The notes below the pieces were generated by a model. That model searched no databases and was not told where the DNA came from. It saw only the letters and a program-made list of their open reading frames with translations. A stretch of DNA of 64,000 nt from Flavobacterium suaedae (GTDB lineage Bacteria > Bacteroidota > Bacteroidia > Flavobacteriales > Flavobacteriaceae), in the NCBI RefSeq assembly GCF_014642915.1, contig NZ_BMJE01000003.1, positions 310,001-374,000 of the forward strand, in the 5' to 3' direction. Shown in pieces: positions 59,072 to 62,008 of the stretch. Numbering within the stretch: position 1 is the first letter of the stretch; each line of letters opens with the position of its first letter. The translations under genes and the position numbers were made by a program.

Positions 59072-59374
59072 TTATGCTTTAGCTCTTATCTTCTGTTTTC
59101 TTTTAACTAATAAACGCTCCATAGATTCCGCAGCCAAGTCCACTGCTTCTTCAAATGTTTTACATTGCTTTTTTACAATAAATTCATTGCCCGGCACATT
59201 TACCTTAACTTCCGCTATTTTGTTCTCTTTACCATTGGTATTATCAACTTTAAAAAAAACATCAGAATTTACAACTTTATCATAATACTTTTCCAGCTTA
59301 TCTAATCTTGCCTGAACAAAACCAACTAACTTTCTGTCAGCACTAAAGTTGACTGCATGAACATTTACTTTCAT
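59072..59374 (-). CDS. hpf: Ribosome hibernation-promoting factor (short HPF/RaiA type)
   Basis: 100 residues from ATG at 59374 (MKVNVHAVNFSADRKL); the frame is open nine codons further, which would overlap the xerC stop. The beta-alpha-beta fold with a conserved VKKQCKTFEEAVDLAAESMERLL helix and a basic C-terminus is that of the short HPF. It binds the decoding centre and inactivates 30S or 70S ribosomes in starvation. It follows xerC closely, so they are probably co-transcribed. Confidence 0.92.
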   Translation of the reverse strand: MKVNVHAVNFSADRKLVGFVQARLDKLEKYYDKVVNSDVFFKVDNTNGKENKIAEVKVNVPGNEFIVKKQCKTFEEAVDLAAESMERLLVKRKQKIRAKA

Positions 59375-59400
59375 AATCATAAATCGTTTATAGTTAAACA

Positions 59401-60303
59401 TTATGAATTATTACGGTTTCGAGGGTGCGCCTTCCCATACACTTTTTTAAGTTCAGCCAAACTGCTGTGTGTATAAACTTGTGTAGATGCTAAACTCGCG
59501 TGCCCTAATAATTCTTTTACTGAGTTTAAATCTGCCCCGTTGTTAAGAAGATGCGTTGCGAAAGTATGCCTAAGCACATGCGGACTCTTTTTAACCTTCC
59601 CGGAGACAACACTAAAGTAACAATTTATTAACCTATAAACAAAAGATTCGCTTAATTTATTTCCCTTATTATTGAGCAGTAAAATAGCCGAATCATTCAC
59701 CTCATTAAGCGTATTGCGTTTTAGCAAATAATTATGCAGCAACTCCATAGTACAGCCCAAAACAGGCAAAATACGTTCTTTATTTCTCTTCCCTAATACA
59801 CGAAGGGTGTTAGTCGATTTATCAAAACTATTAAGTTTTAAATTAATAAGTTCTGCACGCCTTATACCGGTAGTATAAAACAACTCTATTATCAATCTGT
59901 TTCGAACGCCTTCAAAATCATCAGGATAGTCATTTTTTTCAATAACATCTTTAAGTTCTTTTTCTGAGAAAGGAACTTGCACCTTTTTTTCTGTTTTAAG
60001 GGCTTTATGTCGCTGTAAGGGATTGGACTTTATTTGTTTTGAACGAAGTAAAAATTTATAAAATGATTTTAATGACGCTACTTTCCTGTTTACTGATGTA
60101 TTAGAAATTCCGCTTTCTACCAATTCTACAATCCAACTACGTATTTGACTGTATACAACCTCTTCCAGAACAGCACCTTCATCATCTTTTTGTATAAACA
60201 CCTCAAAAGCAGTGACATCATCCGTATAGGCGCGCAGCGTTAACGGAGAATAATTTTTCTCTTTAATTAAATAATCCGCAAAAGCCTGTTTACTGTCTAC
60301 CAT
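59401..60303 (-). CDS. xerC: Xer-family tyrosine recombinase
   Basis: 300 residues. A core-binding SAM-like N-terminal domain (about 1-90) precedes the catalytic domain with Arg148 (TTGIRRAEL), Lys172, His242 and Arg245 (HVLRHTFA), His268 (LLGHAS) and the Tyr277 nucleophile (QVYTHS). This is a housekeeping-size Xer recombinase that resolves chromosome dimers at dif; XerC versus XerD cannot be settled from sequence alone. No phage genes are near. The start codon lies directly after the rpsU terminator T-run. Confidence 0.92.
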   Translation of the reverse strand: MVDSKQAFADYLIKEKNYSPLTLRAYTDDVTAFEVFIQKDDEGAVLEEVVYSQIRSWIVELVESGISNTSVNRKVASLKSFYKFLLRSKQIKSNPLQRHKALKTEKKVQVPFSEKELKDVIEKNDYPDDFEGVRNRLIIELFYTTGIRRAELINLKLNSFDKSTNTLRVLGKRNKERILPVLGCTMELLHNYLLKRNTLNEVNDSAILLLNNKGNKLSESFVYRLINCYFSVVSGKVKKSPHVLRHTFATHLLNNGADLNSVKELLGHASLASTQVYTHSSLAELKKVYGKAHPRNRNNS

Positions 60304-60304
60304 A

Positions 60305-60349
60305 AAAAAACCGTTAACAGCAAAATTACTATTTTACTGCTAACGGTTT
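60305..60349 (-). terminator. Terminator between rpsU and xerC
   Basis: Imperfect inverted repeat (ACCGTTAACAGCAAAAT against ATTTTACTGCTAACGGT) with two mismatches, ending in a seven-base T-run on the minus strand. It lies between the rpsU stop and the xerC ATG. Confidence 0.8.
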
Positions 60350-60376
60350 ATACTATTTAGTATCGAAAATTATCGA

Positions 60377-60571
60377 CTAGTTTTCTTCAGCGTCTCTTAA
60401 TCCTTGGATATAAGCTGCTTTTTGTATTTGAGCTCTTCTAACAACTGAAGGTTTAGTGAACTGCTGACGGCTTCTTAGCTGACGCACTACACCTGTTCTG
60501 TCAAATTTTCTCTTATAGCGTTTTAACGCTCTATCTATATTTTCTCCGTCTTTAATAGGTATAATTAACAT
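60377..60571 (-). CDS. rpsU: 30S ribosomal protein bS21
   Basis: 64 residues from ATG at 60569-60571 (MLIIPIKDGENIDRAL). A GTG three codons upstream is in frame, but this ATG is six bases from a perfect Shine-Dalgarno sequence, so it is chosen. The KFDRTGVVRQLRSRQQF and KPSVVRRAQIQKA segments are typical. In Bacteroidota bS21, with bS18 and bS6, sequesters the 16S rRNA anti-Shine-Dalgarno tail. It has its own promoter and terminator. Confidence 0.97.
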   Translation of the reverse strand: MLIIPIKDGENIDRALKRYKRKFDRTGVVRQLRSRQQFTKPSVVRRAQIQKAAYIQGLRDAEEN

Positions 60572-60577
60572 ACATAA

Positions 60578-60585
60578 CACCTCCT
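60578..60585 (-). promoter_or_regulatory. Perfect Shine-Dalgarno sequence of rpsU (AGGAGGTG)
   Basis: On the minus strand AGGAGGTG, fully complementary to the CACCTCCT anti-Shine-Dalgarno tail, lies six bases before the rpsU ATG. I saw no comparable sequence at other start codons in the window, which are preceded by A-rich leaders. Confidence 0.92.
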
Positions 60586-60598
60586 CTCGTTAAGGGTG

Positions 60599-60628
60599 CA
60601 AATGTAATCAATCCTATTTACATGGCAA
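60599..60628 (-). promoter_or_regulatory. Promoter of rpsU
   Basis: On the minus strand TTG begins at 60628 and TACATTTG (-7) at 60606, 22 bases apart. The predicted start near 60592 gives a leader of only about 20 bases that consists mostly of the Shine-Dalgarno region. Confidence 0.72.
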
Positions 60629-60640
60629 GCAATTATTTAA

Positions 60641-62008
60641 TTATTTTACTGACCATACCGTGTACCCATGTGGAGGTGCCTGTATTTTTACCCAGCTATC
60701 GCCTTGCGTGGTAGGTTCCCAACCGGAGTGCCCTGTATAATCTTTAATTACAGTGTTAGACCAGTTAGTGTCTACCCAGCGTTCTTGCCAAGAATCACTA
60801 TTATTAATATAAACTACTAAACCCGGGCTTCCGTTTCGCCTTGCTACATACTCATCATTATCTGCATAAAGATAGGATGTTCCTCCTGATGCTAAATTGT
60901 TATGTACCCATATCAGGTTATTTAATTTACTTTTATCTAACCAGTCCTCGTAATCTCTGTAAAAAAGACAAGGGTACCCTTCATGAGTAAGTATAAAAGC
61001 GTATGCTAATAATTTATTACTGTATATTTCATCCGTATCATGGTTAGCCACAAAGGTAACTGCTCTGTATGAATTACGTTTAAGCAGCATATCGCCGTTA
61101 AGGTAAGTAAGGTCATTATTAGCAAATGCATCTCGCATTCTGTAATAACAGGCAAAATCAAAAGCACTAGCTTCCGCCTGTTCAGTCCACCAGTCTAGTG
61201 TGGCTGCATTACCATCCCAGTACTCCCCTACTGTAAATCCTCCTACTGCATTTTTAAAGTTTTTAACCACCCACGGCTCAAAACCTTTTACATAATCAAA
61301 TCGCCAACCATCAAAGCCCATTACATTTTTATAGTACTTGGCTATAGAGTTACTGTTGTTATACAACCAGTTCTGTACATATACCTTGTCATGGCACAAA
61401 TCAGGATATCCGCCAAAAGCTCCTGCATCCGAACTATGTACATCATTAGGATGAAAATCATGGTAAGAACGGGCAAACATACCTGATGCGGGCTGGAAAT
61501 CAGTATAAGTATATCCTCCCGTATAGGGGTTGTATTCAGAAGCACCTCCACTACAATGGTTAACAACAATATCTGCTATTACGCTTATATTGTTACTGTG
61601 TGCAGTACTTATTAATGATTGAATTTCACTTAGCGATCCAAAACGGGTTTCGGTATTCCCCATTTGGTTATAGCTGCCAAAATCAAAATAGTCAAAGGGG
61701 TCATACCCCATAGAGTAGCCTCCTCCTGCTGCCTTAGTAGCCGGCGGCAGCCAAATAGCATCTATCCCTGCACTTGACCATGACGGTATTTTTGATGAAA
61801 CCGTATTCCACCACACTCCGTTACCGGGAACATCCCAATAGAAAGCCTGCATCATTACTTTACTTCCTACTGATTTAGTAACAACCTGATTCTCCTGATT
61901 TTGAAGTTCATTTGCAGACTGTTGATTTTCTTCCTGAAGTTCATTTGCTTCTTCACTACAACTACACAATAACAATGCAGAAATAGCCATGGTAATTATT
62001 CGATTCAT
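60641..62008 (-). CDS. Lipoprotein alpha-amylase, GH13 (archaeal GH13_7-like)
   Basis: 455 residues from ATG at 62008 (MNRIITMAI), which gives a lipoprotein signal peptide with Cys17 in LCSC; upstream in-frame codons do not. An ELQ/ENQ-rich linker (about 20-42) leads to the GH13 barrel. Catalytic residues are Asp238 (GWRFDYVKG), Glu262 (VGEYWDG) and Asp324 (VANHDTDEI). The wording MMQAFYWDVPGNG, GYSMGYDPFDYFDFG and YRDYEDWL closely resembles Thermococcales alpha-amylases. No sorting domain is present, so it is anchored by lipid. It degrades starch-like glucans, but no sus genes are nearby. No terminator separates it from the rpsU promoter. Confidence 0.92.
   Translation of the reverse strand: MNRIITMAISALLLCSCSEEANELQEENQQSANELQNQENQVVTKSVGSKVMMQAFYWDVPGNGVWWNTVSSKIPSWSSAGIDAIWLPPATKAAGGGYSMGYDPFDYFDFGSYNQMGNTETRFGSLSEIQSLISTAHSNNISVIADIVVNHCSGGASEYNPYTGGYTYTDFQPASGMFARSYHDFHPNDVHSSDAGAFGGYPDLCHDKVYVQNWLYNNSNSIAKYYKNVMGFDGWRFDYVKGFEPWVVKNFKNAVGGFTVGEYWDGNAATLDWWTEQAEASAFDFACYYRMRDAFANNDLTYLNGDMLLKRNSYRAVTFVANHDTDEIYSNKLLAYAFILTHEGYPCLFYRDYEDWLDKSKLNNLIWVHNNLASGGTSYLYADNDEYVARRNGSPGLVVYINNSDSWQERWVDTNWSNTVIKDYTGHSGWEPTTQGDSWVKIQAPPHGYTVWSVK

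Follow-up and report, generated by a model that had tools for sequence, protein, structure and literature searches.

The rpsU leader in the 64,000-nt window analysed here (the whole stretch of Flavobacterium suaedae DNA, to which all positions refer) is, with high probability, the translational autoregulation element known from Flavobacterium, as judged from its letters and by analogy. Control of bS21 over its own synthesis is already known (excerpts of PMC9976891); because this self-regulating switch has been published for a close relative, the present species is one further ordinary instance and no discovery.

In F. johnsoniae, ribosomes lacking bS21 favour rpsU through an extended Shine-Dalgarno (McNutt et al. 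2023, PMC9976891), and the evidence given in the excerpts of that paper comprises sequestration of the 16S tail, faster initiation by bS21-lacking ribosomes and the response of a reporter; among the mutants, Y54A of bS21 raised the output of the rpsU reporter. The autoregulation model was restated in PMC8710568 and PMC10783764, both cited here from excerpts. By analogy, we infer that the element works in this species as it does in F. johnsoniae. The 16S tail of a complete 30S subunit would be held by bS21, bS18 and bS6 and would not pair with mRNA; in subunits without bS21, the free tail would base-pair with about 11 nt of the rpsU leader, initiation would occur there, and bS21 would be made by bS21-lacking subunits until the subunits are complete. 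The sequence-only reading had proposed feedback by bS21, a proposal that matches the published F. johnsoniae mechanism (excerpts of PMC9976891), and the anatomy needed for such feedback is present here: an extended Shine-Dalgarno, a short predicted leader, Tyr54 in bS21 and a near absence of other such starts.

The rpsU gene (60377-60571, minus strand) encodes a 64-residue bS21 (NCBIfam TIGR00030 S21p, 57.5 bits), the translation of which has Tyr at position 54, as the class of bS21-autoregulated rpsU genes requires. Read along the minus strand, a TTG (60628-60626) is followed after 19 nt by TACATTTG (60606-60599), then by CACCCTTAAC, GAGAGGAGGTG (60588-60578), TTATGT and the ATG (60571-60569). 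The coordinates and spacing agree with the earlier placement of AGGAGGTG six bases before this ATG. No 16S gene was found in the genome assembly by pattern and Rfam searches, and the pairing was therefore computed with an assumed Flavobacterium 16S 3' tail, the matching end of which we take to be UCACCUCCUUUCU; the exact assumed tail was present in 0 of 101 genomes of the genus. With this tail, the extended Shine-Dalgarno GAGAGGAGGTG (60578-60588, minus strand) formed 11 consecutive pairs, one of them G-U, and the RNAduplex energy of the leader was -19.8 kcal/mol.

Upstream of this element, TACATTTG (60599-60606, minus strand) fits TAnnTTTG, a motif that we take to be the Bacteroidota -7 promoter box. 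A TAnnTTTG box was found 27-38 nt 5' of the ATG in all 81 rpsU upstream regions (the best 80 of at least 538 relatives plus the window). The TTG at 60626-60628 (minus strand), 19 nt from the -7 box, would be the -33 element and was weakly conserved, with a TTG 17-23 nt upstream of the box in 41 of the same 81 regions (best 80 of at least 538 relatives plus the window). A sigma-70 scan of 60300-61000 matched the rpsU promoter at 9 of 12 positions (60628-60601), although matches in this region were at chance level (2 found, 2.1 in shuffled sequences). The sequence-only reading had placed the transcription start about 20 bases upstream; from the box position and by scaling from the 25-nt leader predicted for F. 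johnsoniae (excerpts of PMC9976891), we predicted a leader of about 23 nt (60572-60594, minus strand).

The pairing of rpsU stood far apart from that of its neighbors. The best value among the other 52 window genes was -5.9 kcal/mol, compared with -19.8 for rpsU; it reached -6.6 when the starts tried also included in-frame ATGs within the first 30 codons, and -7.6 in mock regions further upstream. The mean energy was -1.1 kcal/mol at window gene starts versus -1.9 in the mock regions, and avoidance of pairing at gene starts was also described in the excerpts of PMC9976891. Section 33 of that paper, as excerpted, defines the class by an rpsU pairing that is the strongest among ribosomal-protein genes and below -13 kcal/mol; 9-13 consecutive pairs are a further feature of the class. 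Here, rpsU had 11 pairs, its energy with the assumed tail was below -13 and the strongest of the 53 window genes, and it also outpaired the ribosomal-protein genes of two further stretches of the same genome, where rplI was next at -12.2 kcal/mol; our energies are from RNAduplex, whereas the excerpts of PMC9976891 describe the use of free_scan.

Such sites were rare in gene leaders. Among 40 other window genes (the 52 minus 11 without an ATG start and minus hpf), the 20 nt preceding the start never contained GGAGG, AGGAG or AAGGAG, and the A content of these leaders was 44%, compared with 31.5% for the window, which bears out the earlier description of A-rich leaders. The genome-wide scan for AGGAGG that had been proposed as a check was run on exact cores and ATG starts, as were the other core scans; AGGAGG-N2-10-ATG gave 183 matches (listed in part) versus 172 for a reversed-pattern control, which is near background. 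Of 13 matches to AGGAGGTG-N3-10-ATG, all checked downstream, only that of rpsU was at a gene start, and of 20 matches to AAAGGAGG-N4-12-ATG, likewise all checked, only that of rplI was at a clear gene start; the others led into frames no longer than 40 codons or lay within a longer frame (L130). The description of the genome as "otherwise without" such sequences thus holds for the 40 window genes and for the AGGAGGTG matches, with rplI as one weaker exception.

These counts bear on whether the rpsU site is a purine-rich stretch present by chance. The near-background number of AGGAGG matches and the energies of some non-gene AAAGGAGG sites, as strong as -16.8 kcal/mol, show that such stretches do occur, but the only two genome-wide matches to GAGAGGAGG-N4-12-ATG were both the rpsU leader itself. 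Moreover, at least 11 consecutive pairs with the assumed tail were kept in 81 of 81 rpsU leaders (the best 80 of at least 538 relatives plus the window), and because of this conservation we consider the chance reading refuted, with next to no probability left to it. Within this set (again the best 80 of at least 538 plus the window), 76 leaders had 11 pairs, three had 12 and two had 13, with energies from -17.5 to -22.1 kcal/mol. The relatives, mostly Flavobacterium or other Flavobacteriaceae, came from a scan of genome contigs; since only the best 80 of at least 538 bS21 matches were kept, near relatives are over-represented.

Compensation between the helix ends was considered and rejected. 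Of these 81 leaders (best 80 of at least 538 plus the window), 47 paired at the 3' end position alone, 30 at the 5' end position alone, four at both and none at neither, a pattern resembling that of a fixed minimum helix. When mapped on a rough tree built from 79 XerC-type proteins, the two end states required three and four changes, with two independent pairs (starred branches), and because the changes are so few, the pattern is not independent evidence.

It is also conceivable that the Shine-Dalgarno is a strong constitutive initiation site that simply raises expression of an abundant small protein without feedback, and a strong site alone would look identical in sequence. We regard this as very unlikely. 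In the S10-spc-alpha region, 29 genes with readable leaders, mostly ribosomal-protein genes for which high expression is likewise expected, lacked such a site, no first-ATG start pairing more strongly than -6.3 kcal/mol; one internal alternative start reached -9.9, which we do not think is used. Furthermore, the ribosomes of F. johnsoniae are said to be blind to Shine-Dalgarno sequences, and an rpsU reporter there gives more output when bS21 is depleted (excerpts of PMC8710568 and PMC9976891).

We also examined an order-wide draw spread over families, in which 58 of 60 genomes had a bS21 match. With the assumed tail, 8 of the 58 rpsU leaders, counting that of the window, paired below -13 kcal/mol, among them 6 of the 7 with the same family code as the window. 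All six genomes sampled from a different family (code f5) of the order had the leader AAAATGAGATGTA; this sequence contains the complement of UCUCA, an altered anti-Shine-Dalgarno reported for Chryseobacterium and relatives (excerpts of PMC9976891 and PMC8710568), and we infer that f5 is the Chryseobacterium group. That group would carry the same rpsU element with changed letters, a TGAGA core in six of six f5 genomes, whereas the core in this species is canonical. The feedback model reportedly originated with Jha et al. in 2021, who are also said to have noted covariation of the Shine-Dalgarno and anti-Shine-Dalgarno 5' of rpsU in Chryseobacterium and relatives. Neither canonical pairing nor the altered core was found in 44 of the 58 leaders, a result that speaks against the autoregulation reading; in five of these 44, the projected start lay one codon too far downstream. 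According to the excerpts of PMC9976891, about 80% of Flavobacteriales fit the rpsU pattern; our lower share probably reflects the even spread of the draw over families and its many small genomes.

The second site lies at rplI (bL9, TIGR00158; L172:1588-2031), which adjoins rpsF and rpsR. Its leader reads AAAAAAGGAGGCAATATT-ATG, with AAAGGAGG seven bases before the ATG, and paired at -12.2 kcal/mol; rpsF (bS6, recognised by eye) and rpsR had values of 1.7 and -0.7. We compared 30 rplI leaders, those with the best protein matches among the 59 of 61 searched genomes that had one, leaving out the rpsR rows of L213 and L216, the latter without rpsR. One relative, L202, shared AAAGGAGG, and 28 of the 30 leaders had no strong Shine-Dalgarno, among them those of L203 (-5.8) and L204 (+0.8), the next-best matches; a weaker AAGGA was present in 26 of these 28. 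The site is therefore not conserved, and rplI was ruled out as a conserved second member. The Shine-Dalgarno class might nevertheless be wider in this lineage, with rplI, beside the genes for the other pocket proteins, also controlled by tail-free ribosomes. The strength of the site and its presence in L202 speak for this, but its absence from 28 of 30 leaders and an energy weaker than the -13 threshold in the excerpts of PMC9976891 make it very unlikely. Also very unlikely is that in a small Flavobacterium branch the regulon of bS21-lacking ribosomes grew from one gene to two through a recently gained Shine-Dalgarno at rplI; if it did, bL9 would be under the same control as rpsU, in an rpsF-rpsR-rplI cluster that encodes the other two tail-pocket proteins. 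The rplI site appears to be a local and probably neutral change.

Downstream of rpsU, a terminator-like hairpin of 19 pairs followed by a T run (60308-60349, minus strand) carries TAATTTTG at 60328-60321 in its 3' half, and the T run extends as far as the xer ATG. The xer product belongs to the XerC/XerD type of recombinases (TIGR02224 was the best model, at 301 bits, below the cut-off of 335), and hpf encodes an HPF/YfiA hibernation factor. The order rpsU-xer-hpf (59072-60571, minus strand), which joins genes for a ribosomal protein and a hibernation factor, was found in 76 of the 80 relatives (best 80 of at least 538); two others had xer without an hpf match, and both genes were missing in a further two, in one of which (L093) the contig ends there. 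We found no paper joining at least three of rpsU, hpf, xerC and Flavobacterium. TAnnTTTG was present in 52 of the 75 rpsU-xer spacers that were 40-250 nt long (from the best 80 of at least 538 plus the window, 6 of 81 being dropped for length or a missing xer), compared with 12% of mononucleotide-shuffled spacers, although these related sequences are not independent. A crude rule that misses some evident hairpins called a terminator in 48 of the 75 spacers, with the box inside it in 14. Thus, TAATTTTG may be a candidate promoter for xer-hpf embedded in the rpsU terminator. In 11 of the relatives (of the best 80 of at least 538), by title Muricauda, Allomuricauda, Flagellimonas, Saonia and Maribacter (L061, L063-L065, L067, L069, L075, L076, L085, L087 and L097), 4 nt separated the box from the projected start of xer downstream of it, and the xer mRNA would then be almost leaderless.

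Compared with rpsU autoregulation in F. johnsoniae (excerpts of PMC9976891), the gene, the genus, the extended Shine-Dalgarno, the single outstanding gene start and the short predicted leader are alike; the differences are the species and the additional, weaker rplI site. The raw sequence confirms a documented case of specialised ribosomes in another species, adding the at least 11 pairs in 81 of 81 near-relative leaders (best 80 of at least 538 plus the window) and a second site, not conserved, at rplI, and it supports the view that one outstanding Shine-Dalgarno gene per genome is typical of Flavobacteriales.
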